DNA of 64,000 nt from a bacterium (GTDB lineage: Bacteria; Elusimicrobiota; Elusimicrobia; UBA1565; UBA9628). The position numbers and the translations under genes are program-made. Where the stretch lies: positions 1-64,000 of the forward strand of contig JAKAQO010000001.1 of the NCBI GenBank assembly GCA_021822495.1. Direction: 5' to 3'. Positions 12,665 to 51,914 of the stretch are shown one piece after another. The notes below the pieces were generated by a model, which was not told the DNA's origin, made no database searches, and saw only the letters and a list, made by a program, of their open reading frames with translations. Numbering within the stretch: position 1 is the first letter of the stretch; every line of letters begins with the position of its first letter.

Positions 12665-13177
12665 ATGAACCATAAGAGAACAATCTCCGTCACTCTCAGC
12701 GTTATCTTGTTGGGAGCCGTCGCTCGTCTTTTACCGCATCCGGCCAATGTCACGCCCATCACCGCGATCGCCCTTTTAGGCGGGGCTTATTTATCCCCGG
12801 CTTTAGCCTTGACCGTTCCATTAGGCGCTCTTTTCCTCAGCGACTTATTTCTAGGCTTTCATGTAACAATGCCTTTTGTCTATTTTTCTTTTATCTTAGT
12901 GTCAGCCATAGGGCTTCTTCTTAAGAACCGCCGAAATACGAAGACGGTCGTCTTCGCTTGCCTGGGAAGTTCCTTACTCTTTTTTATCCTGACCAATTTC
13001 GGGGTTTGGATGAGTTCCGGTCTTTACGCCCACAACGCCTCCGGCCTTGTGATGTGTTATACGGCCGCTCTTCCTTTCTTAAGAAACTCGGCCTTGGGCG
13101 ATCTATTTTTTACCGCTCTTCTTTTCTCGCTTGAAAACGCCGCTCTTAAACTAAGTCCGGTCACCGCGCAATATTAA
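12665..13177 (+). CDS. polytopic membrane protein (DUF6580-like, ECF S-component style)
   Basis: A 170-residue protein with about five hydrophobic helices. 'LLPHPANVTPITAIALLGGAYL' and 'PLGALFLSDLFLGFH' followed by a late 'SALGDLFFTALLF' are typical of a widespread bacterial family (DUF6580) that resembles substrate-binding subunits of ECF vitamin transporters. No ECF ATPase or T-component is next to it, so transport is only a possibility. It lies between tatC and hpnJ and has its own -10 element just upstream. Confidence 0.6.
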   Translation: MNHKRTISVTLSVILLGAVARLLPHPANVTPITAIALLGGAYLSPALALTVPLGALFLSDLFLGFHVTMPFVYFSFILVSAIGLLLKNRRNTKTVVFACLGSSLLFFILTNFGVWMSSGLYAHNASGLVMCYTAALPFLRNSALGDLFFTALLFSLENAALKLSPVTAQY

Positions 13178-13200: not shown

Positions 13201-14658
13201 ATGGACACAATGAGAACGCTCTTTTTAAACCCGCCGTCTTTTGAAGGATTTGACGGCGGAGCGGGAGCCCGCTATCAAAACACCCGCGAAGTTCAATCGT
13301 TTTGGTATCCCACCTGGCTGGCCCAGCCCGCCGCGATGATTCCAAGCTCAAAACTCATTGACGCCCCGGCCGACAATCTCAGTCTCACCGAAGTCATTCA
13401 AAGGGCCAAGGGGTTTGAGCTTTGCGTGATTCATACCTCCACTCCTTCTTTTGACAGCGATGTCAAAATCGCCAAGGCTCTTAAAGACGCTTACCCTCAA
13501 ATGCTGATCGGTTTTGTCGGCGCCCATGTCGCGGTCTTGCCGCAAGAGTCCCTGGAAGCCGCCCCTCACCTTGATTTCGTCGGACGGGAAGAATTTGATT
13601 ACACCATTCTTGAAATCGCCCAGGGAAAACCCTGGGAGAGCATTTTAGGAATGAGCTACCGAAAGAATGGCACAATTTCACACAACAACGATCGTCCTCT
13701 GATTGAAAACATGGATGAACTTCCCTCAGTCATCGACGTCTATAAGAGAGATCTCACCATCGAGCATTATTTCAATGGGTATCTCCGCCACCCCTATTTG
13801 TCTGTTTACACCGGGCGCGGCTGTCCGGCGCGTTGCAGTTTTTGCCTGTGGCCGCAAACCGTAAGCGGACATCTTTACCGCGTGCGTTCCGCGCAAAGCG
13901 TTCTCGCTGAAATGGCTCGCGCCAAAGAAATGTTTCCCCAGGTCAAGGATTTCTTTTTTGACGATGACACCTTTACCGCCAATTTATCGCGCGCCGTTGA
14001 AATCGCCAAAGGACTTAAAAAACTGGGAATTACCTGGGCCTGTAATTCAAGAGCCAATATCCCCTACGAATATTTAAAGATATTTAAGGAAAATGGGCTG
14101 AGACTTTTTTTGGTGGGTTACGAATCGGGAAACCAGCAAATTCTCAATAACATTAAAAAAGGCGTCCGCACCGATATCGCGAAAGAATTCACGAAAAATT
14201 GCCGCAAATTGGGAATTGATATTCACGGTTGCTTTATTCTCGGCCTTCCGGGAGAGACCAAGGAAACCATCGAGGAAACGATGAAATACGCCTGCGAGCT
14301 CGATGTAAAGACGATCCAAGTTTCTCTCTCAGCTCCCTATCCCGGAACCGAACTCTATCGCCAAGCCATGGCCAACAAATGGTATGATGAAAGCGCCTTG
14401 TCCCGCTCGGACGGCACTCAAGCCTGCACTCTCCACTACCCGCATCTTTCCAGCGCTGAAATTGAGCAAGCGGTACTCCGTTTTTATTCCCGCTTTTACG
14501 CGCGCCCAAAACCCATTTTGCGGATACTTGCCGGGATGCTCAAAGACCCCAACGAACGTCGCCGGCGACTCCGGGAAGGAAAAGAATTTTTCCAATACCT
14601 GCGGAACCGAAAAACCGCTCAAACGGCGTCTCCCGCAAAAGACATGGCGTCGGTCTAA
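13201..14658 (+). CDS. hpnJ: hopanoid B12-binding radical SAM protein HpnJ
   Basis: HpnJ converts the glucosamine head group of bacteriohopanetetrol to the cyclitol ether (shown genetically in Burkholderia cenocepacia). The 485-residue product begins 'TLFLNPPSFEGFDGGAGAR', characteristic of HpnJ, has a cobalamin-binding-like N-terminal domain to about 170, then the radical SAM cluster motif 'GCPARCSFCLWPQT' (CxxxCxxC) near 205-215 and 'FFDDDTFTAN'. AGAGG lies about 9 bases before the ATG at 13201; an ATG three codons later is an alternative. hpnI follows after 8 bases. Confidence 0.9.
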   Translation: MDTMRTLFLNPPSFEGFDGGAGARYQNTREVQSFWYPTWLAQPAAMIPSSKLIDAPADNLSLTEVIQRAKGFELCVIHTSTPSFDSDVKIAKALKDAYPQMLIGFVGAHVAVLPQESLEAAPHLDFVGREEFDYTILEIAQGKPWESILGMSYRKNGTISHNNDRPLIENMDELPSVIDVYKRDLTIEHYFNGYLRHPYLSVYTGRGCPARCSFCLWPQTVSGHLYRVRSAQSVLAEMARAKEMFPQVKDFFFDDDTFTANLSRAVEIAKGLKKLGITWACNSRANIPYEYLKIFKENGLRLFLVGYESGNQQILNNIKKGVRTDIAKEFTKNCRKLGIDIHGCFILGLPGETKETIEETMKYACELDVKTIQVSLSAPYPGTELYRQAMANKWYDESALSRSDGTQACTLHYPHLSSAEIEQAVLRFYSRFYARPKPILRILAGMLKDPNERRRRLREGKEFFQYLRNRKTAQTASPAKDMASV

Positions 14659-14666
14659 AGCCCGCC

Positions 14667-15842
14667 ATGATTTTCGGACCGGGATACGTCTATACAGTTT
14701 TGACCTTGTGTGTTTACGGTATTGCCCTTTTTTCCATCGCTTTTTTTCTTATTACCGCTTTTATCTCGCCATCCATCGTCAAAAAGCGAAAGCTGGAAAA
14801 CAATGTTTATCCACCGGTCACTATTCTGAAACCGCTCAAGGGCGCGGAAACGGGGCTTTTTGAAAATCTAAAAAGCTTCTGCGAAATAGACTACCCTGAG
14901 TTTCAGATGATCTTAACTGTCACAACTCCAGATGATCCCGCTGCCGCCGTGGCGCAAAAAATAAAAGAGCAATTTCCTCACCTAGACATTCAATTAGTGT
15001 TTTCAGGAAACAATCCCCCCTTGGGGCTTAACCCCAAAATCAATAACGTCTCTTCCGCTCAGCCTTTTATTAAGCATGATTTTTTGATGATGACAGATTC
15101 TGACGTTCGGGTTCAAAAAGATTTCTTAAAACAAATGGTCGAACCATTTTTAGATCCCAATGTCGGGCTCGTGACCTCGTTTTATCAAGGAGCGCAAAGC
15201 CGAAAATTTTGGCCCACCATGGAAGCTTTGTCCATCAACGCCTATTTTCTCCCGCAGGCTCTCACGGCCTATGCCTTTGGCATGCGCTTTGCGATGGGGC
15301 CGGCGATGCTCATCCGTCGAGATATTTTTGAAGAAATTGGGGGATTCTCTTATCAGGCCAAGTACCTAGCCGATGATTTTATTTTAGGGGAAGCCGTTAA
15401 ATCCGTGGGGCTTAAAATCGCGGCTTCCCACTCGCTGATTGAATGCTTCACTGAAGATTCCGGGGGTCTAAAATATTTCAAACATCAGATACGATGGGCT
15501 CACACCATTCGCATCTGCCGCCCTTCCGGATACTTGGGACTTTTGTTCCTCCATGGATTTTCTTTGCTCGCCTTGCTTATCATTCCATTCGGGGTCAATT
15601 TCACCGCGCTCCTTCTCATGACTGCCGTCATTTTGGCTAAATTCCTGGCCCAAGAGCGAATTTTAAATGCCGCTGGCATAAAATCAAACTGGAAGTCCTT
15701 TTTCCTTTTGCCCATCAGCGAACTCATTATTTTTTGCGCTTGGGTTCTTGGTTGGCGAAGGCAACCCGTTTCCTGGAGAGGAAAAACCTATTCTTTCCCC
15801 CAGTCCAACACGGAACCTGTCTTAACCGCAGCCGAGAGATGA
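14667..15842 (+). CDS. hpnI: hopanoid-associated glycosyltransferase HpnI (GT2)
   Basis: HpnI adds N-acetylglucosamine to bacteriohopanetetrol at the inner membrane. The 391-residue product has an N-terminal membrane helix (about 8-30), the ceramide-glucosyltransferase-type GT2 core with 'VTILKPLKGAETGLFENL', the DxD site 'MTDSDVRV', 'GFSYQAKYLADDFILG' and 'HQIRWAHTIR' (QxxRW), then several C-terminal membrane helices. The stop overlaps the hpnL start (ATGA). Identity is supported by the hpnJ/hpnL/hpnK neighbours, since isolated ceramide glucosyltransferase-like proteins can be ambiguous. Confidence 0.88.
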   Translation: MIFGPGYVYTVLTLCVYGIALFSIAFFLITAFISPSIVKKRKLENNVYPPVTILKPLKGAETGLFENLKSFCEIDYPEFQMILTVTTPDDPAAAVAQKIKEQFPHLDIQLVFSGNNPPLGLNPKINNVSSAQPFIKHDFLMMTDSDVRVQKDFLKQMVEPFLDPNVGLVTSFYQGAQSRKFWPTMEALSINAYFLPQALTAYAFGMRFAMGPAMLIRRDIFEEIGGFSYQAKYLADDFILGEAVKSVGLKIAASHSLIECFTEDSGGLKYFKHQIRWAHTIRICRPSGYLGLLFLHGFSLLALLIIPFGVNFTALLLMTAVILAKFLAQERILNAAGIKSNWKSFFLLPISELIIFCAWVLGWRRQPVSWRGKTYSFPQSNTEPVLTAAER

Positions 15843-16846
15843 GCGCAGGCAAAAAAATACTCCTTTGGTTTCACCGCCTTGTCATCGTCATCGGCCTCAT
15901 CACCCTTTTTTTTCTCATCGAGCATCTCGGGCCTTCAAAAATCTTAGCCCATATCCGGGAGTTCGGGGTTTGGGGTTTTCTAGCCATTCTTCCCATTCCC
16001 ATTCTTGAACAAAGTCTGAACGCCTGGGCCTGGCGTTTTACTCTTGAGCCTAAAGACGCGGGCAAAGTTCCCTTTATGTCGTTAGCCCAGGGAAGACTCG
16101 CGGGAGACGGCGTCAATTATCTCACGCCTTCCGCCTCTATCGCCGGGGAATTTGTCCGCCCCCCTTTTTTGGGAAATGAACTTTCCTCCGAAGTCAAAAA
16201 CACCAGCGTCTTTATCGGCAAACTTTCCCAAAGCCTCGCCCAAATGGCTTTTATTTTAGTCGGAATTCTTTTTTTGATACTCGGGAAAATGAACGCCCTG
16301 GACGGAAGAGAAATCCTTTGGATTGTTCTTGGCGCTCTTTTTGTGGCGGCCCTGATTTCTTTTTCCCTTTTTATTCTTTCCTTTAAGAAAAAAGATGGAA
16401 AATTTTTTTGCGATATTGGAGGGCCCGGAATTTCAGCGATCAGGGAAAATATGCGCCGCTACCTTTTGTCTCATCCCATCCGCATGGGGCTTTCGGTTTT
16501 ATTTTTTACCGTCGGATACGCCAGCATGATGATTGAAGTGGCGGTCATCTGCTCTTTTATGAATTTGCCCATTGACGCCTTTACGGCCCTGGTCATTGAA
16601 GCTCTTTCCCATGCCTTTGAGGCAATATTTTTCATGGTCCCGGCTAAACTTGGAACCCAAGAGGTTGGGAAAGTTCTCATCTTCAAAGCTTTTGGCTACA
16701 CAGCCGGGCAAGGCCTTAGTTTCGCCATCATTCGCCATATCCGGGAAATTTTGTGGGCATCCCTGGGGTTTTTGATCTATCTCACACACCGGACTGGAAT
16801 AAAGAAATACCTCGGTGTTTCAGCATCTCTAAAACCCGCGGACTAG
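15839..16846 (+). CDS. hpnL: hopanoid-associated membrane protein HpnL (LPG synthase TM-like family)
   Basis: A 335-residue polytopic protein (about eight membrane helices) of the UPF0104/lysylphosphatidylglycerol-synthase TM family that accompanies hpnI-hpnK and has been proposed to help hopanoid or lipid movement; its function is not settled. Diagnostic stretches: 'EQSLNAWAWRFTL', 'LAGDGVNYLTPSASIAGEF' and 'VPAKLGTQEVGKVLIF'. The track start at 15734 is inside hpnI; ATG 15839 overlaps the hpnI stop (ATGA). The last 65 bases overlap the converging hpnK gene on the other strand. Confidence 0.85.
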   Translation: MSAGKKILLWFHRLVIVIGLITLFFLIEHLGPSKILAHIREFGVWGFLAILPIPILEQSLNAWAWRFTLEPKDAGKVPFMSLAQGRLAGDGVNYLTPSASIAGEFVRPPFLGNELSSEVKNTSVFIGKLSQSLAQMAFILVGILFLILGKMNALDGREILWIVLGALFVAALISFSLFILSFKKKDGKFFCDIGGPGISAIRENMRRYLLSHPIRMGLSVLFFTVGYASMMIEVAVICSFMNLPIDAFTALVIEALSHAFEAIFFMVPAKLGTQEVGKVLIFKAFGYTAGQGLSFAIIRHIREILWASLGFLIYLTHRTGIKKYLGVSASLKPAD

Positions 16847-17582
16847 TCAAAGTCTCAAACTCGGTCAAAGTCTGATGACTTAAAGTCGGGCGCTCGCCGC
16901 TAACGCGACTATTGGGGTCCAAAGAGGGATGAAAATAAATTTCGGTTTCCCCTTCCGGAAGGTTTTCAAGCAACCTTAAAACATAATCTTCCCTCATGCG
17001 CCCGGAGCGCAAAAGGCCAAAACAATGGGGAAGAATTTTTATTTCCGGCGCGATTTCTCGCGCTTTTTTTTTGAGATAAGGCCCGAGCGCCCCAAACGCC
17101 GCGTATTCAATTTGATTTGAAAATGGAATTTTTTTTAAAAACCGCCGAGCGAGAGAATATTCTCCCGCCGGAACCCGCACGCGAGAAACTCCGAATTTTT
17201 TGCAAACGCGCAAAAGAGCGGGGAAAATGACCGGATGAATATGGATATTGATATGTCCGTCTACGTGCGTCGGCTGAAGACCAAAACTTCTGATCTTTTC
17301 CATTTGGCGCTCAATTTCCGCGTCCACGCGCTTGCGCCAAGAAGGCAAGAAAAAATATTTAAGTCCGCACAACGCGGGATTTGAATCGCATAAATTGAGG
17401 TGGAGCCCGACTCCAAGACCTGGGTTGTCTTTCGCCAAGTCTGCCGCCTCTTGGGCGTACGGGGCGTCAACTAGTAAACTTGCGTAGCGCAAAATTCCTT
17501 CTTTAAATGCGCCAATGACGGCATGGTTGACCTCGGGGCTTGCCCCAAAATCATCGGCGGTGACAAACAATAGACGCTTCAC
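16782..17582 (-). CDS. hpnK: hopanoid N-acetylglucosamine deacetylase HpnK (ChbG/YdjC fold)
   Basis: HpnK removes the acetyl group from GlcNAc-bacteriohopanetetrol made by HpnI, giving the substrate for HpnJ. The 266-residue product has the YdjC metal motif 'VTADDFGASPEVN', 'GVGLHLNL' and 'PTHVDGHINIHIHP', with the hopanoid-subfamily ending 'RGISLF'. The track start at 17651 is wrong: GTG at 17582 gives the family N-terminus 'KRLLFVTADDFG' and overlaps the upstream pilin-like gene by GTGA. It is thus expressed as the tail of the pilus operon, while hpnJIL run towards it; the 3' ends overlap by 65 bases. Confidence 0.88.
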   Translation of the reverse strand: MKRLLFVTADDFGASPEVNHAVIGAFKEGILRYASLLVDAPYAQEAADLAKDNPGLGVGLHLNLCDSNPALCGLKYFFLPSWRKRVDAEIERQMEKIRSFGLQPTHVDGHINIHIHPVIFPALLRVCKKFGVSRVRVPAGEYSLARRFLKKIPFSNQIEYAAFGALGPYLKKKAREIAPEIKILPHCFGLLRSGRMREDYVLRLLENLPEGETEIYFHPSLDPNSRVSGERPTLSHQTLTEFETLTSPRVLEMLKHRGISLFQSGV

Positions 17583-18016
17583 TGGCAGGTGGGGGTCACC
17601 GAAGCAAAAGGCGGAAATGAATTGGTCGTGGTTTGCGCCGTAAAAGTGCACGGGGGATTTGCGCCATTAGGGCCATTGGTGACCGCCACTGTAAGGCCGG
17701 CCAAGGAGCCACTAGTAAAAGTGCATGTACAGTTACATTGTCCAGAAGTCCCCGAGCAACTAAAAAGTGGAGGGGCGCTACTACAAACCGGATCGGTCAC
17801 GCCCGCGGTTGAACTGAGCCTATCCCAGGTTGAAAAAAACTGGGCTGCCGCAAGCTGAACACAGCGGGCGTATTTCACATCCATCGTCGCTCTATTGGCA
17901 GCGGTATACCTCATCAAAACTAAGCGCATAAGACCCGCCGCGATTAAAACGACGACCAAGGCCGTTACAATCGTACTGACTAGAACCTGCCCTTTAAAAT
18001 TCTGGATGGATTTCAT
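17579..18016 (-). CDS. pilus-associated single-TM protein, PilX-like
   Basis: A 145-residue protein with a short basic N-terminus and one membrane helix ('VLVSTIVTALVVVLIAAGLMRL'), followed by a Cys-rich periplasmic region ('CSGTSGQCNCTC'). It lacks the GFTLIE prepilin motif; 'KGQVLVSTIV' resembles PilX/GspK-type proteins, whose leader is degenerate. Position after PilV- and PilW-like genes matches the pilE-V-W-X order of minor pilin clusters. It overlaps the upstream PilW-like gene by ATGA and hpnK by GTGA. Confidence 0.65.
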   Translation of the reverse strand: MKSIQNFKGQVLVSTIVTALVVVLIAAGLMRLVLMRYTAANRATMDVKYARCVQLAAAQFFSTWDRLSSTAGVTDPVCSSAPPLFSCSGTSGQCNCTCTFTSGSLAGLTVAVTNGPNGANPPCTFTAQTTTNSFPPFASVTPTCQ

Positions 18017-18651
18017 TGCAGGCGCCCAGTATCTGGAACAAAGGTCGTGTCAATCTGATAATAAGTCGGGGTTTGCTCGACAGCCGTCGCCACGGGATAA
18101 CCCACAACCAGGTGCATATCAATTCCCCCAAATTGAGAATTGAGATAAAAAGGGCTTGAAAAGCTGGGTTCCAAGTAAACATTTTGGTAAACCAAGGTTT
18201 GGCCTCCTCCTCCTCCGCACGAAATACTGCTACACCCCCCCGTGCTAGAATAGCGAACCAAATCATAGGGACCAGTGTAACCCGAAGGATCGCAAGGAAC
18301 CACTGACGAAGCACAGGGGTTCTGAACGCAATAGGCGAAAGAAGTCATGGGCGCAGCGGTATAGATTTGCGGGCCAAGATTAGTCGTCGAAGAATAATTC
18401 CCGCAACCTTGAATAGACAGGCTCGCGGGGCTTGATGTCGAAGGATTGGAGTAATAAGTCGCGGCCTCGATCTCAAGCCTCATCTGATCTAACGAATAAA
18501 GGGTTTCGGAGTCCACCGCCCCATGGCGAATTCCCTCAAAATGTCTTTGAAGCATGCTCGCGGTAATGTCAATCAACCCTACCATCACAATCGAACTTAA
18601 AGCGACGGCTACGATCATTTCCACCAAGGTGAACCCAGAATGCAATTTCAT
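18013..18651 (-). CDS. prepilin, PilW/GspJ-like minor pilin
   Basis: A 212-residue prepilin. The leader 'MKLHSG' is cut before 'FTLVEMIVAVALSSIVMVGL', with Glu5 present. The mature protein has the helical 'GLIDITASMLQRHFEG' continuation and a Ser/Cys/Gly-rich C-terminal domain ('CSSISCGGGGGQTLVY'). Minor pilins prime pilus assembly. It overlaps both neighbours by four bases (ATGA). Confidence 0.82.
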   Translation of the reverse strand: MKLHSGFTLVEMIVAVALSSIVMVGLIDITASMLQRHFEGIRHGAVDSETLYSLDQMRLEIEAATYYSNPSTSSPASLSIQGCGNYSSTTNLGPQIYTAAPMTSFAYCVQNPCASSVVPCDPSGYTGPYDLVRYSSTGGCSSISCGGGGGQTLVYQNVYLEPSFSSPFYLNSQFGGIDMHLVVGYPVATAVEQTPTYYQIDTTFVPDTGRLQ

Positions 18652-19229
18652 GGATTACTCCAGTTGATTGAAACCGTAACCTGTGGGCCGCCAATTTGTT
18701 GTCCCGAACTAATAGGCGGGGCCGCCACGAGATAAGACAAGGTCGCGTTATAAGGCGGCTGCCACATCCAAGGGGGCAAGCAAAAAGGCGTTCCCAAACT
18801 CGTCAAACCATTAGACCCAACCGTCAGTTGATGCGTACCCCCTACAAGGGCGTAGCAGCCGCTACAACTGTCAGTTACTCCCGAAGAAGCCCAAGTCCAT
18901 TGCGTGGAACTCCCAGAACCTGTAGAGCAACTCGCCGGGGACAAGGGCCCGCAAATTTCCGGCATAGTAGGATTAAAAGAATTTGTGCTGTAATTCCAAT
19001 AACCAGTCACAAAAGAGTGGAGTTCATTAGTCAATTGCGTCATGCACTGAGACGCCGCATTATGCTCTTCCGTAATTTTTGATTCTCCCTTGGCCCCCAA
19101 CGCCACGCTAAAAACAGCGGAAGTCATTACCGCCGCCAAAAGAACGGCGGCTAAAACCTCGATGAGAGTCGAACCCTCGCAGAAAAAAAGGGACAGTCCC
19201 TTTTTCCTACGGCCTCCTAATTCATTCAT
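18648..19229 (-). CDS. prepilin, PilV/GspI-like minor pilin with a repeat-derived leader
   Basis: A 193-residue prepilin-like protein. The cleavage motif is 'CEGSTLIEVLAAVLLAAV': Gly at -1, Ser instead of Phe at +1, Glu at +5. The unusually long leader 'MNELGGRRKKGLSLFF' contains the sequence AAAAAGGGACTGTCCCTTTTT of the dispersed palindrome family, so the start and leader appear to have been rebuilt by a repeat insertion. The C-terminal domain has Cys pairs ('CSGCY'). It may still be processed, since the leader is basic. The start is supported only by being the sole ATG in frame. Confidence 0.72.
   Translation of the reverse strand: MNELGGRRKKGLSLFFCEGSTLIEVLAAVLLAAVMTSAVFSVALGAKGESKITEEHNAASQCMTQLTNELHSFVTGYWNYSTNSFNPTMPEICGPLSPASCSTGSGSSTQWTWASSGVTDSCSGCYALVGGTHQLTVGSNGLTSLGTPFCLPPWMWQPPYNATLSYLVAAPPISSGQQIGGPQVTVSINWSNP
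19183..19205. repeat. A-tract/GGGACAGTCCC/T-tract palindrome inside the pilV-like gene
   Basis: AAAAAAAGGGACAGTCCCTTTTT, an almost perfect 23-base palindrome, lies within codons 9-16 of the PilV-like gene and is repeated 68 bases further on at 19251-19274. In other settings such a sequence would resemble an intrinsic terminator, but here it is translated. Confidence 0.7.
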
Positions 19230-19250
19230 TGACCCTCCATCATTTCAAAC

Positions 19251-19274
19251 AAAAAAAGGGACAGTCCCCTTTTT
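19251..19274. repeat. second A-tract/GGGACAGTCCC/T-tract palindrome, between pilin genes
   Basis: AAAAAAAGGGACAGTCCCCTTTTT lies in the 49-base gap between the main pilin gene and the PilV-like gene. A 4-5 bp GC stem flanked by A and T tracts could act as a bidirectional weak terminator or stabilise the pilin mRNA 3' end, separating abundant major pilin message from minor pilins. It is the twin of the copy at 19183. Confidence 0.65.
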
Positions 19275-19278
19275 CTTC

Positions 19279-19779
19279 TTACTGCGGCGGCGGCGGCACA
19301 TTGGTCCCCACCGCAGTGACAACCCCATTGGAATCAATATTATATCCCCAAGTCGTGTAAGGAGAAGTGTTCGTACAGGGAGAAGATCCCGTACAACGAC
19401 TCACGGTCACTAACGGCGAGCAAGGAGGAGTCGTACAACTCTGAATGGTAATCGTATAGGGTTTTTCACTGTAGTTATCCGCCGGCATATAGCCGCAGTA
19501 CACCAAATCACAAGCATTATTCTGAGGGCACGTAGCTCCGTTATCACAATTACTTGAACAAGAACCACTTCCACTCCCAATACACCCAGCGGTAACATAT
19601 TGACCGTTATGGTCCACCGCGTACATCCGATCGGCGTTCCCAGCCATGGTGAGATACCCCACCGCGTCATTGGCCTTGCTAGTCTCCATGGATTGAATGT
19701 AAGAAGGATAACCAATGGCCGCCAGTATACCAACAATCAGGATCACCACTAAAAGCTCAATCAAGGTAAAGCCTTTCAT
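19279..19779 (-). CDS. type IV prepilin, probable major pilin (PilA/PilE-like)
   Basis: A 166-residue prepilin with the minimal leader 'MKG' and a canonical mature start 'FTLIELLVVILIVGILAAIG', then 'YPSYIQSMETSKANDAV' and a Cys-rich C-terminal half with several Cys pairs ('CSSNCDNGATC', 'CDLVYC'). The canonical leader and its place directly after pilC, separated from the minor pilins by a terminator-like palindrome, make it the best major pilin candidate. The start overlaps the pilC stop (TAATG) with GGGAGGA just upstream. Confidence 0.86.
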   Translation of the reverse strand: MKGFTLIELLVVILIVGILAAIGYPSYIQSMETSKANDAVGYLTMAGNADRMYAVDHNGQYVTAGCIGSGSGSCSSNCDNGATCPQNNACDLVYCGYMPADNYSEKPYTITIQSCTTPPCSPLVTVSRCTGSSPCTNTSPYTTWGYNIDSNGVVTAVGTNVPPPPQ

Positions 19780-20999
19780 TATTTTCCTCCCATCGTCGAC
19801 ATCTTAAATATCGGCATGAAAACCGCAAGAACAATCACGCCGACAAGGCCGCCAATTCCAACGACCAGAATGGGGTCTATAATGGCGGTAAATCTTCTTG
19901 TAAACTGATCGATTTGGAGGCGATAAAATCCGGACATGGTTTGAAGCATATCCGGCAGTTTTCCCGATTCTTCGCCCATAAACATCATTTCGGTTACCAA
20001 GGGAGGTAAAACCTCAGATTTTCTAAAAGCCGAGGATATGGATTTCCCGGCCGCGACATCAAGTCGGATAGCGGATAAGGCCATCTGAAAAATAATATTG
20101 GCCGCAAAAACACCTTCCAAGACCGCAATCGCGTTTAAGATGCTGACTCCGCTTTCAATTAAAGTCGAGAGAGTCGTTAGAAGCCTTTCGACCATGACAT
20201 TTTTGATAAATTCCCCAAAGAATGGAATCTTAAATATCATGCTCCACTTGGCAATTTTTCCGGCATCGGTTGAAGTATAGGATTTCCAGGCCATATACCC
20301 GCCAATAACGCAAAATAGAATAAGTCCTATATGGTGGACGATAAGTTCAGAGGTGGAAACGACCATCTGCGTCAAGATGGGAAGCTTGATATTAAATTGT
20401 TTAAATATCTTGGCGAAAACGGGAACGATATGAATGACGAAAAAAGCGAGAACCCCTCCCGACATAAAGGCCAAAACCGCCGGATAAGCCAAGGCGGTAA
20501 TAATCTTTCCCCTCAGCTCCGCTTGAGCCGTCAAGTAACTGGAAATTTGACGCAAGACCTTGGGAAGTTGTCCGCCCATTTCTCCCGCCTGAACCAAGGA
20601 GACCCACAAGGTATCGAAAACAGCGGGATGTTTGGCCAGGGCTTTATAAAGCGCGGTTCCTCGGGATACGTCCTGGGTCACAGCGCCTACGATATCATGA
20701 AGAGCCGGAGAATTGGAATGTTCGCCAAGAAGGGATAAAGCTCTGACCAAGGGAACTCCGCCAGTTAAGAGGGTAGAAAGCTGTTCCGAGAAAAAAATCA
20801 AATCCTGCTGGGCGACTTTCTTTGTTTTTGAGGAACCAAATCCGCGCACGGAGGTTTTTGTATCCTTGGAAGACAAAGACAAAATAAAATAGCCCTTTGA
20901 TTGAAGGGCCGCGACTGCTTCGTTTTCATCTCCCGCCTCAAGAGTTCCGGAAACAGCCTCGCCTCTAGGATCCTGAACCACGTATGAAAATTGAGACAT
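19779..20999 (-). CDS. pilC: inner-membrane platform protein PilC/GspF
   Basis: PilC is the polytopic platform on which pilins are assembled and which the PilB ATPase rotates or pushes. The 406-residue product has an N-terminal cytoplasmic segment ('FSYVVQDPRGEAVSGTLEA') and two T2SF domains: 'LSTLLTGGVPLVRALSLLGEHS' and 'LSTLIESGVSILNAIAVLEGV', with 'MGEESGKLPDMLQTMSGFYR' near the end and three to four membrane helices. The track start at 21095 lies inside pilB; ATG 20999 has AGGGGGC upstream and 8 bases from the pilB stop. Confidence 0.94.
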   Translation of the reverse strand: MSQFSYVVQDPRGEAVSGTLEAGDENEAVAALQSKGYFILSLSSKDTKTSVRGFGSSKTKKVAQQDLIFFSEQLSTLLTGGVPLVRALSLLGEHSNSPALHDIVGAVTQDVSRGTALYKALAKHPAVFDTLWVSLVQAGEMGGQLPKVLRQISSYLTAQAELRGKIITALAYPAVLAFMSGGVLAFFVIHIVPVFAKIFKQFNIKLPILTQMVVSTSELIVHHIGLILFCVIGGYMAWKSYTSTDAGKIAKWSMIFKIPFFGEFIKNVMVERLLTTLSTLIESGVSILNAIAVLEGVFAANIIFQMALSAIRLDVAAGKSISSAFRKSEVLPPLVTEMMFMGEESGKLPDMLQTMSGFYRLQIDQFTRRFTAIIDPILVVGIGGLVGVIVLAVFMPIFKMSTMGGK

Positions 21000-21007
21000 A
21001 GCGCCCC

Positions 21008-22762
21008 CTATTCCTTCATCGTCACCGACAACACTTCTTCCATGGTCGTCAGCCCCGCTAAAACCTTTCGCCAACCGCTCGCCCTCAAATCCCACATGCC
21101 GCTTTTCATTGCCACCTCGCGCAACCGCGCTAAATCGCCGCCGTATTTATAAATGATTTCCCTCATTTCGGGAATAATACGGTAAATTTCGTAAATGGCC
21201 CGCCGTCCCATATATCCGGTTTGGGCGCATTTATCGCAACCCCTCTGTTTGTAAAAAACGATATTGGCTGGATTGGGAATTGAAGCTTGCGGCAAATAAG
21301 ATTCCTTGATGCACATACTTAACTGCTCTGGATCCGGCTTATAGGGCCTTTTGCAATGAGGGCAAAGAATGCGAACCAGCCGCTGCGCCGCAGCCAGAAG
21401 AAGGCTTCCTGAAAGTAAAAACGGCTCTATTCCTAAATCAATGAGACGCACGACCGTCGACATCGCGTCGTTAGTGTGCAAGGTGGAAAGCACCAGGTGT
21501 CCGGTCAACGCCGCGCGCAAACAAGTTTGAGCGGTTTCCTGGTCGCGAACCTCTCCAACCAGAATCACATCCGGGTCTTGACGTAAAAAAGATCGCAAAG
21601 CCGCCGCGAAGGTGAGTCCGACATCGGAACGAACCTGGACCTGGTTTAATCCATCGAGCTTTATTTCAACTGGGTCTTCAATCGTCATGAAATTCAGCTC
21701 GGGAGTTTTAATAGTATTTAAGACGGAATAAAGAGTGGTCGTTTTTCCAGAACCCGTTGGACCGGTCAAAAAGATTAATCCATGGGGTTGTTTGGCGGCG
21801 TCCAGAAAATCCGCTTTTTGTTTCGGCTCAAAGCCTATTTTATCGACATCAAGGTTTACCGCCCCCTTGTCCAAAATACGCATGACCACTTTCTCTCCAT
21901 AAACCGTCGGGCAAATAGACACGCGCAAATCAATATTGCGGTTTTGAAGTTTAATCGCGAAAGTTCCGTCTTGAGGCAGGCGCCTTTCCGCGATGTCGAG
22001 TTTTGAAAGAATTTTAATGCGAGAAACCAAGGATGAGAACATCGCTTTAGGAGGCGAACTTCTTTCATATAAAATCCCGTCAATGCGGAAACGCAGACTT
22101 GCCCGGCTGTCGAAACTCTCCAGATGAATATCCGAGCATCTTTCCGTCACGGCTTGTTTTAAAATCGCGTTGATGAGAGAAACAATTTGGGCGTCATTTG
22201 AGCCCAGAATAGCTTTATCCAGGTCTACACGGACATCTCCCGCTTCGGATTCCTCGGGCAGAGCGGCAACATTGGTTTTTTGGTTTTCCTCCAGCGTCCG
22301 CGCGACGAGCCCACCTCCCATCCCGCCGTAAAGTTCATCAATAGATTTTAAAATTTGCGTTTTTGCCGCCACAAAGGGATGAATCGTTTTTGAAGTGAGG
22401 ACCCGAATATTATCCTGAAGCATGACGTTGGTCGGATCCACCATGGCGACCCCCAGCGTTCCATCCTCAAGAAAGAGAGGAACCATCAAATGTTCCCGCG
22501 CAAAATTTTCCGGAATCAATTTCTCGAGTCCTTGGCTTTTTTCCGGGATTAAAATCTTGTTTTCCCTAGAAGCCAGGGGAATACCCAATTGCTTGGACAA
22601 AGCCGCGGTAATGACGCTCTCCGAGGCAAAGCCGAGCTTAATCACCGCCTCTTCAAAACTGCATTGAGCCTCTCTGGAAATTTTAAGGGCTTTGTCTTTT
22701 TGCTCCGCAGTCAAAGACCCCGCGGAAACCATCACATCAGCCAAGAGCGCTCTATCAGCCAT
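21008..22762 (-). CDS. pilB: pilus assembly / type II secretion ATPase PilB/GspE
   Basis: The hexameric ATPase powering pilin assembly. The 584-residue product has an N-terminal MshEN-type domain ('LADVMVSAGSLTAEQKDKAL', a fold that binds cyclic di-GMP in some relatives), then Walker A 'GPTGSGKTTTLYSVL', Asp box 'MTIEDPVEIKLDG', Walker B 'DPDVILVGEVRDQETA', His box 'GHLVLSTLHTNDA', and a tetracysteine zinc site ('CPHCKRP' and 'CDKCAQTG'). A good sigma-70 promoter precedes it, so pilB to hpnK can be transcribed separately from the secretin part. Confidence 0.95.
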   Translation of the reverse strand: MADRALLADVMVSAGSLTAEQKDKALKISREAQCSFEEAVIKLGFASESVITAALSKQLGIPLASRENKILIPEKSQGLEKLIPENFAREHLMVPLFLEDGTLGVAMVDPTNVMLQDNIRVLTSKTIHPFVAAKTQILKSIDELYGGMGGGLVARTLEENQKTNVAALPEESEAGDVRVDLDKAILGSNDAQIVSLINAILKQAVTERCSDIHLESFDSRASLRFRIDGILYERSSPPKAMFSSLVSRIKILSKLDIAERRLPQDGTFAIKLQNRNIDLRVSICPTVYGEKVVMRILDKGAVNLDVDKIGFEPKQKADFLDAAKQPHGLIFLTGPTGSGKTTTLYSVLNTIKTPELNFMTIEDPVEIKLDGLNQVQVRSDVGLTFAAALRSFLRQDPDVILVGEVRDQETAQTCLRAALTGHLVLSTLHTNDAMSTVVRLIDLGIEPFLLSGSLLLAAAQRLVRILCPHCKRPYKPDPEQLSMCIKESYLPQASIPNPANIVFYKQRGCDKCAQTGYMGRRAIYEIYRIIPEMREIIYKYGGDLARLREVAMKSGMWDLRASGWRKVLAGLTTMEEVLSVTMKE

Positions 22763-22785
22763 TGAGAATTTTAACCCCTTTTAGA

Positions 22786-22813
22786 AGTATAACGGGTTTC
22801 CCTGATATGTCAA
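22786..22813 (-). promoter_or_regulatory. sigma-70 promoter upstream of pilB
   Basis: Read on the minus strand: TTGACA (22813-22808), a 16-base spacer and TATACT (22791-22786), then a leader of roughly 17 bases with AAGGGG before the ATG at 22762. This is one of the best promoter matches in the window and sits in the 57-base gap between the secretin and ATPase genes. Confidence 0.72.
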
Positions 22814-22819
22814 GGCCTA

Positions 22820-24844
22820 TTAGTCATTGATAATGGTCGGCGTAATAAAGATGACGAGATCCGTGTTTTTGCGCTGAGCTTGAACGCTGGTAAAGAGCCA
22901 CCCAATCACGGGAATATATCCCAAGAAGGGAACCTTATCAACGGTCTTTTGTTCGGTGGAATGGAGAAGCCCGCCCAGAACCAAGGTCTCCCCATTTTTG
23001 ACACGAACCAGGGTTCGAGCGGAGCGGTTTAAAGTGTCATAGACAGGATTTGCGGCAGTTGAGATCACCGACGCCTGGGCATCGGTGAAGCTGGGAGCCA
23101 CCATCATCGTAATATACCCATCGCCATTGACTTGGGGCGTCACTGTTAAAGAAAGTCCAGTTTGCGCAGTCGTTGGAGTATAGGCCGCCTGGGTAATTCC
23201 CATTCCGCCGCCGGTCGTTTGCTCCGACATATAAAGAGCTGTATTTCCTGTAATCGAAATAGTCGCAGGGGTATTATTGACCGTCAGGATTTTGGGCTTT
23301 CCCAGATATCGCGCTTCTGAACGGGAAACCAACATGCGAAGGGTCACAGTCAGTTGGCTTAAGTTAAGAACACTGGTCATAACGCTCGAACCCAACATGG
23401 GGAGCCCCGTGAGCGGATTGATTCCTGCTTGGGTTGTTGGAATGGCCAAGGTCGCCCCCGATGAACCAATACCACCCAAGGTTGATGAAAACCCACCGCC
23501 GCCCATCATGCCACCGCCCATACCACCACCACCGCCACCACTCATTCCACCGCCTTCAAGGGCCAGGGTGCTCATGACGTTTTGGACCGGGTCAAAAAAA
23601 CGAGCTTGACCGGAAGCTCCCGTTAAAACCATGGGAAAAGTCGTATCTCTCTGACCGCCCGTAAAGGTTCCCATTTCGCCGTTAGGGCCTCCCCATTCAA
23701 AACCCAGATCGTTAGCACGAGTGGAATCAATTTCCACAATTTGCGCCTCAATCATGACCTGCGGAACTTTCTTATCCAACTCCGCAATCAACTGATCGAC
23801 CTGCGGAAAAACCTCGGGCACATCGGTGACAATCAAGGAGTTCGTTCTTGGGTCCACCGCCACTCGCCCGGCTTTGGTTAAAACCGATTGGACAACCGTA
23901 ACAATAGAACTCGCGCCTCCTGCCCCTGCTCCCGGCATTCCACCCGCGCCTTGAGCTCCACCTGCCGCCCCGCCCATTAACGATCCCATTCCCAAAGCTT
24001 GACCGCCTTGTCCCGGAGAAAGCCCGCCACCGCCAGGTGCGCCGCCCGCCCCGCCAGCGCCCCCTCCGGCGCCACCGGCGGGAGATCCCCCCCCGCCAGA
24101 GGAAGGCCCACCCATTCCTCCCAACATTCCCGCGGCGCCTCCGGCGGCGCCCCCCATGGCGCCTTGCTGACCTTGAGTTCCTTGTTGAGAGATATTGACC
24201 AAGGGTATATAGGAGAGAGAATAAATCCGCGTGATAAAATCAGGGGCGTTCTTTGATCTCTTCTTAATGACATAGGTATTGCTTCTTCCAATTTGCCGAT
24301 AGGTAAGCCCTTTGATTTCAAGAAGTATCTGCAGCGCCTCCCGCACCGTCACATGCTGCAAAAAGGCGGTAATTTTGATGGATTCAAGGCCTTCCGTGAC
24401 AAGAAAGTTTATTCTTGCTTGAGCTGAAATAGCGTCTAAAAAAGTCGCCAAAGGCGCGGCCTTAACTCGAATAGAGATACGCGTATCCAGAGGAGAAATG
24501 ATTTTTTTCTTTGGCGGCGCATGAGGCGTCGAAGCGCCAATTTGTATTCCCTGGGGAGACGCGCTTGTTTGGGAGGCCGAAGTTGCTTGGTCTAACGCTT
24601 TAGAGGCGGTAGCGGCGTGAGCCTTGACCGCAGAAACGCTTCCTACCGGCCCACCGGAATTAGATTGAGGAGCTTGCACTGAATTTTGAAACTGAGGATT
24701 CGCTTCTGGAGTCGAGCTATCAGACTGAGCCCAAGCCGTCAAACCCGGCAAAAGCCCCAACTCCAAGGCGGATAAAAGACACAAGGCGCGTCCAAAAAAT
24801 CGTCCCCACGCTCTACCTCTAGGATACCTGATCTGGATGTTCAT
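22820..24844 (-). CDS. pilQ: outer-membrane secretin PilQ/GspD with glycine-rich insertions
   Basis: The secretin forms the outer-membrane channel for the pilus. The 674-residue product has a signal peptide (1-39, ending 'LTAWAQ'), an STN/N0-like domain at about 125-200 ('DTRISIRVKAAPLATFLDAI'), an N1-type domain ('VDPRTNSLIVTDVPE'), and the C-terminal secretin domain ending 'VPFLGYIPVIGWLF' and 'DLVIFITPTIIND'. Two low-complexity inserts stand out: about 75 residues of Gly/Ala/Met/Pro near 225-305 and a Gly/Met run ('GGGMSGGGGGGMGGGMMGG') near 430-450. GAGGAGAG lies 6-7 bases before the ATG. The glycine blocks are at domain junctions. Confidence 0.92.
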   Translation of the reverse strand: MNIQIRYPRGRAWGRFFGRALCLLSALELGLLPGLTAWAQSDSSTPEANPQFQNSVQAPQSNSGGPVGSVSAVKAHAATASKALDQATSASQTSASPQGIQIGASTPHAPPKKKIISPLDTRISIRVKAAPLATFLDAISAQARINFLVTEGLESIKITAFLQHVTVREALQILLEIKGLTYRQIGRSNTYVIKKRSKNAPDFITRIYSLSYIPLVNISQQGTQGQQGAMGGAAGGAAGMLGGMGGPSSGGGGSPAGGAGGGAGGAGGAPGGGGLSPGQGGQALGMGSLMGGAAGGAQGAGGMPGAGAGGASSIVTVVQSVLTKAGRVAVDPRTNSLIVTDVPEVFPQVDQLIAELDKKVPQVMIEAQIVEIDSTRANDLGFEWGGPNGEMGTFTGGQRDTTFPMVLTGASGQARFFDPVQNVMSTLALEGGGMSGGGGGGMGGGMMGGGGFSSTLGGIGSSGATLAIPTTQAGINPLTGLPMLGSSVMTSVLNLSQLTVTLRMLVSRSEARYLGKPKILTVNNTPATISITGNTALYMSEQTTGGGMGITQAAYTPTTAQTGLSLTVTPQVNGDGYITMMVAPSFTDAQASVISTAANPVYDTLNRSARTLVRVKNGETLVLGGLLHSTEQKTVDKVPFLGYIPVIGWLFTSVQAQRKNTDLVIFITPTIIND

Positions 24845-45684: not shown

Positions 45685-46188
45685 ATGAAGAAATACACAA
45701 TCCTAGTCGGACACGGCGCCGTGCCCAAGGACGCCCCCAAATCCTTGGTGGAAGAATTTAAGCGTCTTGAGCGCGTTTCTCCAAACTCTCCTGAATTGCG
45801 GGAAGCCGACCGCAAGCTTCGCGCTTGGCCCAGAAATTCCGAAACCGATCCTTATAAAGAAGGCCTTGAACGAATCGCGGCTTCTCTCCAAAAACAAATG
45901 TCTGATCACGTGGTCATTGAGGCCTATAACGAATTTTGCTCTCCAAGCCTCGAAGAAGCGCTGGATTTTGCCGCTCAAAAAAATGCGGACAGCATCACCG
46001 TCATTCCAACCATGTTTACCCGCGGGGGCATTCACAGCGAAACGGAAATCCCAGACATCATCAGCAAATTTTCAAAAACCCACCCCGATATTTCGACCAA
46101 TTACGTCTGGCCTTTCAACCTAAACGTTATCGCCCAAATGCTGGCCGAAGAAGTTGTTCGCGTCGAAAAATCAACTGTTTCTTCCTAG
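45685..46188 (+). CDS. CbiX/SirB-like chelatase-fold protein
   Basis: A 167-residue single-domain member of the CbiX family, whose known members insert Co or Fe into sirohydrochlorin or, as paralogues, nickel. It shows 'ILVGHGAVPKDAPK' at the N-terminus, 'VIEAYNEFCSPSLEEALDFA' and 'ITVIPTMFTRGGIHSETEIPDII', where His in 'GGIHSETEIP' matches the family metal-binding site and Glu is retained. No cobalamin or sirohaem genes are nearby, so the metal and substrate are open. About 20-30 residues near 25-55 are extra compared with short CbiX. Confidence 0.75.
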   Translation: MKKYTILVGHGAVPKDAPKSLVEEFKRLERVSPNSPELREADRKLRAWPRNSETDPYKEGLERIAASLQKQMSDHVVIEAYNEFCSPSLEEALDFAAQKNADSITVIPTMFTRGGIHSETEIPDIISKFSKTHPDISTNYVWPFNLNVIAQMLAEEVVRVEKSTVSS

Positions 46189-46205
46189 GGCTTTCGCACG
46201 CTCAA

Positions 46206-48041
46206 ATGGAGAAGCCGACCCTCCTTTATGATGGCGACTGTTACTTTTGCCGCGGCTGGGTCAATCGCTGGAAAGCAACCTCCGGCCATGCCGTTGAATT
46301 TCGCGCCTCTCAGGAAGCCGGCCATTTATTTTCCAACATTCCAGATGAGGAACTAAAAACCGCCGTCCAACTCATCGACTCCACCAAAAGATACTCCGGC
46401 GCGGAAGCCGTTTTTAAAACCCTCGCCTACGGAGGAAAAACCTGTCCCTTTTTTTTGTATCAGAAACTCCCGTTTTTCAAAACCTTCAGCGAAGCCTTTT
46501 ACCGCTTTGTCGCCTCTCGCCGCGCTTTTTTTTCAAAGCTGACCCGGCTTTTCTGGGGAGCGCATTTAGAAAAACCAAGATACGCTTTTGCCTCTTGGGT
46601 TTTTATGCGCTTAGTCGGGCTCTCGTATTTTTTCGCTTTTGGGGCGTTGGTTTTTCAGTGGAAAGGTTTGTGGGGACATCAGGGAATATTGCCCGCCCAA
46701 CTTTATCTCGATGCGCTCAAGTCTCATTTCGGATCTAAAGCTTATTTTCTCTCGCCCACTCTTTGCTGGGCGTTTAAGTCTGACGCATTTTTAGGATTTA
46801 TGGCGTGGAGCGGAACCTTTTGTTCCTTATTAATAGTCTTGGGAATCGCGGAAGGCCCTTTGACTCTACTCTGCTGGCTTCTTTATCTTTCTCTCGTCTC
46901 AGCGGGACAGGATTTTTTGAGTTTCCAATGGGACATCTTGCTTTTGGAAATCGGTCTCATCAGCTTTTGGACGCTTCCCTGGAAACTTTGGCGAGGTTTT
47001 GAAATTGAAGAACCCCGACTCGTCGCGCGAATACTTCTTTTTTTTCTCCTTTTTAAACTTTTCTTTGAATCGGGACTTGTTAAGATTTTAAGCGGAGACC
47101 CTCACTGGCGCAATTTCACGGCGCTTTTTTACCATTTTCAAACCCAGCCTCTCCCAACCTGGATTGGTTGGTGGGCGGCTCAAAGCCCCAACTGGTTTCT
47201 CAAGATTTCTACAGCCGCTACTCTGGCCATCGAGCTCATCGCGCCTTTGCTGCTTTTTTTCCCCCGCCGCGCCAAGATGTTAGGCGCTATACTCATGATT
47301 TTTCTTCAAAGTCTTATCGCCCTGACCGGAAATTACGGCTTTTTCAATTTACTGACGATTTCTCTTTGCGTTCTTTGTTTCGACGATTTTTTCTTTCAGG
47401 ATTTTTTCAGGAAATGGTTTTCAAAATTTAATCTTGACACCGAGACAAAGCCGCTAAACCGCTTCAAACGCCATCTCATTTTTTCTTTTGCAGGTCTTTG
47501 GGGAATTCTCTCTTTATCCCAGCTTATGGCCATGATCATTCCCCAAACCATTCCGAGGCCTCTTGAGAATTTAGACGCCGTTCTAAGCCCGCTTCACATC
47601 GCCAGTTCCTACGGTCCTTTCGCTGTGATGACCACCCATCGCTATGAAATCGTTATTCAAGGAAGCGAGGACGGAGTTTCTTGGGAAGATTATTATTTTA
47701 AGTGGAAGCCTCAAGACCTCGGACGCGCGCCTTCTTTTGTCGAACCCTATCAGCCTCGGCTTGACTGGCAAATGTGGTTTGCCGCCCTTGAGCCCTATCA
47801 AAGGCGTTCCTGGTTCACCGCTTTTCTCGTCCGGTTGCTTGAGGGTTCTCCCAGCGTTTTGTCTCTTTTAAGAAATAATCCTTTTGAGCAAAATCCTCCC
47901 AAATACGTGCGCGCTCTTTTTTATGAGTATCAGTTTACTTCGCCCGCAGCACGCCGCTTAAACGGGCATTGGTGGAAACGCGAATTTCAAGGGTCCTATT
48001 GCCCTATTCTTGCCCTCAAAGGAAATCGAAATGGCGCTTAA
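46206..48041 (+). CDS. fusion of a DCC thiol-oxidoreductase domain with a lipase-maturation-factor-like membrane protein
   Basis: A 611-residue protein. Residues 1-120 are a DUF393/DCC domain ('LLYDGDCYFCRGWVNRW', CxxC-type site), followed by an LMF1-like membrane protein: several hydrophobic helices from about 145 to 460 ('AGQDFLSFQWDILLLEIGLI', 'DPHWRNFTALFYHFQTQPLP', 'IALTGNYGFFNLLTISLCVL') and a soluble C-terminal domain ('YEIVIQGSEDGVSWEDYYFKWKP'). LMF1 helps disulfide-rich lipases fold in the eukaryotic ER. A disulfide-active N-terminal domain fits a redox-folding role, which is inference. The track start at 45936 lies inside the CbiX gene; ATG 46206 is supported by the domain boundary. 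Confidence 0.85.
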   Translation: MEKPTLLYDGDCYFCRGWVNRWKATSGHAVEFRASQEAGHLFSNIPDEELKTAVQLIDSTKRYSGAEAVFKTLAYGGKTCPFFLYQKLPFFKTFSEAFYRFVASRRAFFSKLTRLFWGAHLEKPRYAFASWVFMRLVGLSYFFAFGALVFQWKGLWGHQGILPAQLYLDALKSHFGSKAYFLSPTLCWAFKSDAFLGFMAWSGTFCSLLIVLGIAEGPLTLLCWLLYLSLVSAGQDFLSFQWDILLLEIGLISFWTLPWKLWRGFEIEEPRLVARILLFFLLFKLFFESGLVKILSGDPHWRNFTALFYHFQTQPLPTWIGWWAAQSPNWFLKISTAATLAIELIAPLLLFFPRRAKMLGAILMIFLQSLIALTGNYGFFNLLTISLCVLCFDDFFFQDFFRKWFSKFNLDTETKPLNRFKRHLIFSFAGLWGILSLSQLMAMIIPQTIPRPLENLDAVLSPLHIASSYGPFAVMTTHRYEIVIQGSEDGVSWEDYYFKWKPQDLGRAPSFVEPYQPRLDWQMWFAALEPYQRRSWFTAFLVRLLEGSPSVLSLLRNNPFEQNPPKYVRALFYEYQFTSPAARRLNGHWWKREFQGSYCPILALKGNRNGA

Positions 48042-49257: not shown

Positions 49258-50511
49258 GTGTTTAAGAGTCTAATTTTAATCGCTTTAATGATGCCGGCCT
49301 GGGGAAGCGAAAACCCGCCTCAGGGTTTGGATGACCTCATCAGTATCGCCGAAAAGAACAATCCCGATATTTCGCGGGCCAAGGAGCATTGGAAATCTCT
49401 CATGGCCCAAGTTCCCGCCGAGGCAAGCTGGAATGATCCAACAATCGGCTTTCAGCGAATGAATTTTCAAGGCGGAGACGCCGGCAATTATTGGTCCGTC
49501 GCGCAAGACGTGCCGTTTCCAGGGAAACTATCCAAAAGCGCGGAGATGAAACGCCATGAAGCGCTCATTGCCTATCAGGAATACCGCGCCGAGAAACTCA
49601 ATGTCATAGCCCAAGTGGCGATTGCCTACGCGCGCATCTATTGGCTTAAAAACACCGCCCAAATTCTTAAAAAAGATTCTGAGACTTTACGAGCGCTGTC
49701 AAAAGTCGTGGAGGCTTCCGTCGCCTCCGGCCGCGCCAAAGCCGATGAGGCCTTATCGGCCCAGGCCGCTTTTATTAAGGTAAGAAATGCGGCGATGGAG
49801 AGAAACGCGGAAAGCCGTGTCCAGGAAGAATCTCTCGACTCTCTTCTCAATCAACCGGCGGGAAAGCGTTGGCATCTTCTTCCGCCGTCTCAGCCGCAAG
49901 AACTTAAAATTAGCGCCGCAGGTCTCGATCAACTCGCCCAAAAAATCAGCCCGGATTACATGAAAGCTCTTCATCTCATTTCCCACGCCCAAGCCATGGT
50001 GAGCCTGGGGAAAATGGGTTTTTTGCCGGATTTTCAACTCACCGCGACCCAAGAATCCGGCCGTCCCGTTCCCGCCATGGAGGAAAGCGCCTATGGCGTC
50101 AATCTCACGATTCCCCTGTGGTTTTGGAAAGAAAAGGCCATGCTCAAATCGGCTCAAGCTCACGAGCGCGAAGCCGCAGCAGAATCGAAACAAGCCCGCA
50201 ACGAAATTTTTAGGGAAATTCACTCGGAACTCATCGAGGTCAACCTACACCAAGAATTGGCTCTCAGCGCCCGACAAGAACTCATCCCATTAGCCCAAGG
50301 AGCTTTTAAAATCGCGGAAAAAGGCTACGAAGCGGGCCGCGAGAGCTTTTCCCAGCTTTCCGAAGCCGTGCGCGCGCTTTTGGACGCGCAACTAAAATAT
50401 CCGACCGAAGTTGAGCTCTATCAGGAACATTTAGCGCGCCTTGAACGCGCTTTAGGTGGGCCGCCCAACACACAGCCTAACGCCATGTCTAGCCAGGAGA
50501 TGAACCCATGA
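49258..50511 (+). CDS. outer-membrane efflux channel, CusC/TolC family
   Basis: A 417-residue outer-membrane factor: a signal peptide ('LIALMMPAWGSE'), then two OEP-type coiled-coil repeats ('LDDLISIAEKNNPDISRAKEHW', 'IAYARIYWLKNTAQILKKDSE', and 'EIHSELIEVNLHQELALSARQEL', 'IAEKGYEAGRESFSQLSEAVRALLDA'). It would form the exit duct of the RND pump encoded downstream. The start is GTG with TAAGGAG upstream. The stop overlaps cusB (ATGA). Confidence 0.9.
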   Translation: MFKSLILIALMMPAWGSENPPQGLDDLISIAEKNNPDISRAKEHWKSLMAQVPAEASWNDPTIGFQRMNFQGGDAGNYWSVAQDVPFPGKLSKSAEMKRHEALIAYQEYRAEKLNVIAQVAIAYARIYWLKNTAQILKKDSETLRALSKVVEASVASGRAKADEALSAQAAFIKVRNAAMERNAESRVQEESLDSLLNQPAGKRWHLLPPSQPQELKISAAGLDQLAQKISPDYMKALHLISHAQAMVSLGKMGFLPDFQLTATQESGRPVPAMEESAYGVNLTIPLWFWKEKAMLKSAQAHEREAAAESKQARNEIFREIHSELIEVNLHQELALSARQELIPLAQGAFKIAEKGYEAGRESFSQLSEAVRALLDAQLKYPTEVELYQEHLARLERALGGPPNTQPNAMSSQEMNP

Positions 50512-51611: not shown

Positions 51612-51628
51612 TGAAAAATGATGAGTCT

Positions 51629-51659
51629 AAAAAAGAAGGCCCCGGTTTCCCGAGGCCTT
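51629..51659 (-). terminator. intrinsic terminator of the tRNA-Asp gene
   Basis: On the minus strand AAGGCCTCGGGAAACCGGGGCCTTCTTTTTT forms a GC-rich stem (AAGGCC-CGG / CCG-GGCCTT) with a short loop and is followed by CTTTTTT. It lies about 130 bases downstream of the tRNA 3' end. The reverse orientation has no T tract, so it should not stop the cus transcript. Confidence 0.72.
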
Positions 51660-51785
51660 GGGTAGCTATTGGCCCATCTGTCAGAATTAGTGTAACAGAA
51701 GCGATGAACATTGTCAAGAAAGTTCTAAAAACGGGGCGGACCCTCACCCCCCATCTGTCTGGAGAAAGGCAAATATCCATGAGAC

Positions 51786-51857
51786 CTGCCGGGGCGGGAC
51801 TCGAACCCGCATCTCTCCATTTGACAGATGGGCGCTCTACCATTAAGCTACCCGGCA
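51786..51857 (-). tRNA. tRNA-Asp (anticodon GTC)
   Basis: The minus strand reads TGCCGGG..CCCGGCA as a perfect 7-bp acceptor stem, a D-arm 'GCTTAATGGTAGAGC', an anticodon arm 'CCCATCTGTCAAATGGA' with loop CTGTCAA (anticodon GTC, Asp) and one C-A mismatch at the top of the stem, and a TpsiC arm 'GCGGGTTCGAGTCCCGC'. The discriminator base is G, as expected for Asp; CCA is not encoded. It sits antisense between cusB and cusA. A TATGAT hexamer lies about 15 bases upstream on its strand. Confidence 0.93.
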
Positions 51858-51914
51858 AGGTCCTACCTATCATACGGGTGGAGAGTCAAAAAAGTTCCCT
51901 CAAGGAGCCGCTTC

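Follow-up and report, generated by a model that had tools for sequence, protein, structure and literature searches.

The 64-kb stretch of Elusimicrobiota DNA analysed here (the window) carries, between positions 13201 and 17582, four genes that are predicted to build a hopanoid head group (Table 1). hpnJ, hpnI and hpnL run head to tail on the forward strand, and hpnK converges on them from the reverse strand. This is the arrangement given in the initial annotation; its coordinates and strands are correct, and curated models give the four genes the same names. The spacing of hpnJ-hpnI-hpnL is operon-like, with a gap of 8 nt between the first two genes and an overlapping ATGA at the junction of hpnI with hpnL; hpnL and hpnK overlap by 65 bp at their 3' ends. 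The start of HpnK is most likely the GTG at 17582, judging from its overlap with the stop of a reverse-strand ORF (17579-18016). The same gene order is kept across the family of the host (f1, most likely UBA9628) and in f2, another family of the order, indicating that the arrangement is not due to chance. A DUF6580 (ECF-transporter-like) membrane protein is encoded directly upstream of hpnJ (12665-13177, forward strand); among the loci examined, this gene adjoins hpnJ only in those of the same genus. On its other side the locus meets a reverse-strand set of genes (17579-24844) for pilin-like proteins, a PilC-like membrane protein and a secretin, the junction between hpnK and the last pilin-like ORF being a GTGA overlap.

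Table 1. Genes of the predicted hopanoid head-group locus (window coordinates)
Gene	Position	Strand	Product and predicted role
hpnJ	13201..14658	+	Radical SAM enzyme with a B12-binding domain; predicted to contract the sugar ring of BHT-glucosamine, yielding BHT cyclitol ether
hpnI	14667..15842	+	GT2/GT21-type glycosyltransferase; predicted GlcNAc transfer to BHT
hpnL	15839..16846	+	Multi-pass membrane protein, LPG_synthase_TM superfamily; possibly lipid flipping
hpnK	16782..17582	-	YdjC-type metal-dependent deacetylase; predicted substrate BHT-GlcNAc; GTG start

We scored the four proteins against the curated NCBIfam models. HpnJ reaches 766.6 bits against TIGR03471 (cut-off 577.6) with a match spanning positions 1-471 of 472, and it has the Radical_SAM and B12-binding Pfam domains. 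Its CxxxCxxC motif (GRGCPARCSFC) aligns with those of alphaproteobacterial and Nitrospirota HpnJ, leaving the iron-sulfur cluster ligands intact. An identity as an HpnR-type methylase was ruled out (76 bits against the HpnR model, cut-off 650). HpnI scores 297.2 bits against TIGR03472, under the cut-off of 310, and this is the best name for it among the curated models. In 30 Elusimicrobiota genomes a syntenic HpnI orthologue exceeds this cut-off, nearly always adjoining hpnJ; one of these genomes is G223, of the same genus (312.3 bits). The window HpnI, which retains the glycosyltransferase motifs DSD (DxD), ADD and RW, is by sequence an orthologue of the TIGR03472 members rather than a model-certified member. 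HpnL (111.9 bits against TIGR03476, under the cut-off of 195.65) has no other NCBIfam match; it scores 93.2 bits against PF03706, and its place in the cluster is conserved.

HpnK likewise carries its best name among the curated models with a score under the cut-off (198.8 bits against TIGR03473, cut-off 232.6), and it matches PF04794 with 180.8 bits. The deficit arises because a loop of about 20 residues is missing after the GLHL metal-ligand motif (profile positions ~65-88), as in most f1 clusters; where order-mates retain more of this loop, their HpnK comes close to the cut-off or exceeds it, and those of G270, G278 and G295 pass it. The aspartate and two histidines that serve as metal ligands (D10/H60/H109 equivalents) are invariant. 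ChbG-type enzymes act on soluble oligosaccharides, whereas the substrate of HpnK would be a lipid-linked GlcNAc. The structure predicted for HpnK (mean pLDDT 83) has its best solved matches in the YdjC deacetylases EF3048, ChbG and CmCBDA, and shares with enzymes of this type (PDB 7vi8, 8jqe, 2i5i) a similar fold (TM ~0.7) and the metal-ligand motifs. By fold and ligands HpnK is thus predicted to be a YdjC-type deacetylase, for which BHT-GlcNAc is the predicted substrate. The HpnK of JA2.bin36, a MAG of the same genus, contains an in-frame, palindromic-repeat-like insert (TPTKVGVQ...GFRRND; locus L012, 13933-14031), of which similar copies occur on contig C14 of the window genome (L011).

None of shc, hpnH and hpnG lies within the 64-kb window, as the initial annotation had stated; they are found instead on contig C14 of the same genome (2.2 Mb, 94.7% complete), in one run of genes comprising shc, hpnH, hpnA, hpnG, FPPS, dxs and ispH. 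Scores exceed the cut-offs for shc (706 vs 431 bits), hpnH (500 vs 225), hpnA (437 vs 368) and FPPS (350 vs 275); the SHC translation contains a DIDD motif, and the HpnH cluster motif reads CNLECAGC. The search for these genes elsewhere in the genome, which the initial annotation had called for, was less clear for HpnG, whose candidate is a weak match (69.7 bits, cut-off 187.1) with a PNP_UDP_1 domain and the right place in the operon. Absence of shc and hpnH had been named beforehand as grounds for rejecting the pathway; since both are present, it is not refuted. A second contig (C6) carries hpnC-hpnD-hpnE, with HpnC (323 bits, cut-off 250) and HpnE (352 bits, cut-off 283) over and HpnD (253 bits, cut-off 279) under their cut-offs. 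SHC, HpnH and the genes for squalene synthesis are therefore all contained within one genome. No HpnN-type exporter, which is not required for synthesis, was found in the genome (best match 21.5 bits, cut-off 751.85).

From gene presence, orthology, intact motifs, conservation and co-occurrence, we infer each catalytic step of the following route and its end product. FPP would be supplied by the FPPS of the shc operon, where dxs and ispH of the MEP pathway also lie, and would be converted to squalene by HpnC/D/E and then to hopene by SHC. HpnH would add adenosine, HpnG would take off the adenine, and a further step would convert ribosylhopane to bacteriohopanetetrol (BHT). HpnI would then transfer GlcNAc onto BHT, HpnK would remove the acetyl group from BHT-GlcNAc to leave BHT-glucosamine, and BHT cyclitol ether would result from contraction of the glucosamine ring by the radical SAM enzyme HpnJ; HpnL may aid movement of the lipid across the inner membrane. 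The three-step route HpnI-HpnK-HpnJ has been established in Burkholderia (PMC12583986, citing Schmerk 2015). Since the genome encodes all three catalytic proteins as well as the pathway to their substrate, BHT cyclitol ether is the likeliest product, and it may coexist with BHT-glucosamine, by analogy with other bacteria. Overall, with a probability of roughly 0.8, the locus would supply the head group in a complete hopanoid pathway that is native to this Elusimicrobiota lineage and ends in BHT cyclitol ether. Set against completeness are the scores of HpnI, HpnL, HpnK and HpnD under their curated cut-offs, the loop missing from HpnK, the weak HpnG and the lack of HpnN. The initial description of the head-group pathway as complete is correct as regards the three head-group steps; it is less secure for the supply of BHT, given the weak HpnG and an enzyme for ribosylhopane to BHT that is established in no organism (PMC12583986).

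To place the locus among its relatives, we surveyed 295 Elusimicrobiota genomes. HpnJ over the cut-off occurs in 34 of them: 32 belong to family f1, which has 34 genomes in all, and two to f2 in the same order. The f3 genomes have HpnJ fragments at contig ends. An SHC match is present in 33/34 f1 genomes and in 40/43 genomes of the order, and eight more genomes of the class pass the hopene-cyclase cut-off; no SHC was found in the compact genomes of f4 and f15 in this survey. HpnH accompanies SHC in 45 of the 48 SHC genomes, and all 34 HpnJ genomes have a strong HpnI match. Three order-mates (G210, G224 and G273) have SHC, HpnH, HpnI and HpnK and no HpnJ over the cut-off, and their pathway should therefore end at BHT-glucosamine. 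A second HpnI-HpnK pair is seen in G125, in G237 and in f2 genus g13 (L111, L112, L115, L116); its HpnK is full-length and over the cut-off (330-354 bits), and in the HpnI tree its glycosyltransferase lies apart from the clustered Elusimicrobiota sequences.

It is possible, though unlikely, that the pathway of the window genome also halts at BHT-glucosamine or mainly accumulates it, with HpnJ being weak or active on demand. BHT-glucosamine is the dominant bacteriohopanepolyol (up to 90%) in many Alphaproteobacteria that have all three genes (PMC12583986), and the HpnJ-less clade just described makes a glucosamine end product plausible within the order. But HpnJ is the top-scoring and best-conserved gene of the cluster in the window genome, and its iron-sulfur ligands are intact, which speaks against a glucosamine endpoint.

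Even less probable is that the cluster acts on another membrane or surface glycolipid instead of hopanoids. This idea draws on HpnJ-like radical SAM proteins (~365-410 bits) in Elusimicrobiota without SHC, which suggest that the wider family need not be hopanoid-only, and on the separate contigs that carry hpnJ and shc in the window genome. However, these paralogues score far under the cut-off and form a separate clade, whereas of the 34 genomes with true HpnJ in the phylum all but one also have SHC (33; hypergeometric 6e-31, a value that ignores relatedness), and in 11 relatives hpnJ and shc lie on one contig, 19-36 kb apart. The single exception is G180 (93% complete), which has the HpnJ cluster and no detectable SHC. 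HpnJ-like paralogues were located at L141 8526-9983 and L142 6523-7989, with matches in G066, G054 and G037; the neighbours at the two loci read are glycosyltransferase and sugar-nucleotide genes, both of the kind found in surface-polysaccharide clusters, and a related rearrangement on another glycolipid is a possible role.

The closest HpnJ sequences (94-95% identical) come from the MAGs JA2.bin36, YF2.bin97 and Elusimicrobia MAG clean4882, which presumably derive from acid mine sites, going by their isolate names; further Elusimicrobia, including GWA2_66_18, follow at 76-77%. Within the genus, HpnI is less conserved (69-78%) than HpnJ. The HpnJ tree compares 32 sequences from Elusimicrobiota with 14 from Alphaproteobacteria and two from Nitrospirota, and it sets the Elusimicrobiota apart as a single group (91/97); the HpnJ of the two sampled Nitrospirae MAGs is only 56% identical and sits on its own branch. 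Quick trees likewise gave an Elusimicrobiota group for clustered HpnI (99) and for SHC (100), so that the phylogeny proposed initially for HpnI and HpnJ returns a group of the phylum's own for each. These groupings speak against both contamination and a recent transfer from Alphaproteobacteria or Nitrospirota; as far as sequences can tell, the hopanoid genes would be an old trait and not a recent import from the sampled outgroups. An older transfer into the lineage may have occurred, for example from a donor in Acidobacteria, Gammaproteobacteria or NC10. An origin of the locus by misbinning or misassembly of proteobacterial or Nitrospirota DNA is hardly credible: acid-mine communities commonly carry hopanoid genes (e.g., hpnIJ of Leptospirillum; PMC7231039), but the locus sits on a 779-kb contig, its HpnJ, HpnI and SHC group with Elusimicrobiota, and the cluster recurs together with flanking tatC, DUF6580 and cytochrome genes in independent close MAGs, which makes contamination very unlikely.

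The predicted native pathway to BHT cyclitol ether resembles that of Burkholderia cenocepacia and the Alphaproteobacteria, with the same HpnI-HpnK-HpnJ by curated models, the same motifs, and the upstream SHC/HpnH, a candidate HpnG and HpnC/D/E also present. It differs in layout: the alphaproteobacterial loci seen have hpnI-hpnJ(-hpnK) in one direction, often in one hpn region with shc, whereas the Elusimicrobiota have hpnJ-hpnI-hpnL with a convergent hpnK, a shorter HpnK loop and no HpnN that we could find. Acidobacteria likewise have ispA/shc/hpnH and hpnA/hpnG groupings along with hpnI and hpnJ; subdivisions 1 and 3 are without hpnK, and only Chloracidobacterium thermophilum B among the cultured genomes examined has all three of hpnI, hpnJ and hpnK (PMC5462960). 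Leptospirillum (Nitrospirota), from acid-mine settings, also carries hpnCDE, shc, hpnH and hpnIJ (PMC7231039).

In keeping with the condition set in the initial annotation, the head-group genes reside in a candidate-phylum host, an uncultured member of the Elusimicrobiota with shc and hpnH in the same genome, which would make it a candidate source of the lipid. The accompanying view of BHT cyclitol ether as a biomarker of a few lineages is not supported by published work, in which cyclitol ethers occur in a wide range of bacteria, precluding source assignment (PMC9232131); since the compound was never specific, no diagnostic biomarker is overturned. The chemistry is known, and what seems new is the lineage, apparently unrecognised as a source in the open literature: we found no report of hopanoids in Elusimicrobiota among open-access publications. 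On balance we favour the broader proposal that BHT cyclitol ether synthesis is an old, conserved trait of the uncultured order UBA1565, above all of UBA9628 (groundwater and acid-mine settings), to the exclusion of the compact-genome families. The order would then be an unrecognised environmental producer of bacteriohopanepolyols, alongside a sister clade ending at BHT-glucosamine. A deep-branching, largely uncultured phylum would in this way join the likely makers of composite hopanoids, with genes conserved family-wide. This bears on how hopanoids from groundwater, soil or acid drainage are interpreted, as well as on the evolutionary history of SHC and HpnJ. A link between hopanoids of the cyclitol type and tolerance of low pH has been reported (PMC7231039 and PMC9232131, both citing Schmerk 2015) and would fit the apparent acid-mine relatives.

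Three other features of the window deserve mention. A forward-strand gene (45936-48041) encodes a DCC1-like thiol-disulfide domain fused to a lipase maturation factor (LMF1, LMF1_C), a family best known in animals. A caspase-domain (Peptidase C14) protein with ankyrin repeats is encoded on the reverse strand at 872-2935, and a heavy-metal RND efflux set, consisting of an OEP, an HlyD with a heavy-metal-binding domain and an AcrB-type pump, occupies 49258-55127 on the forward strand.
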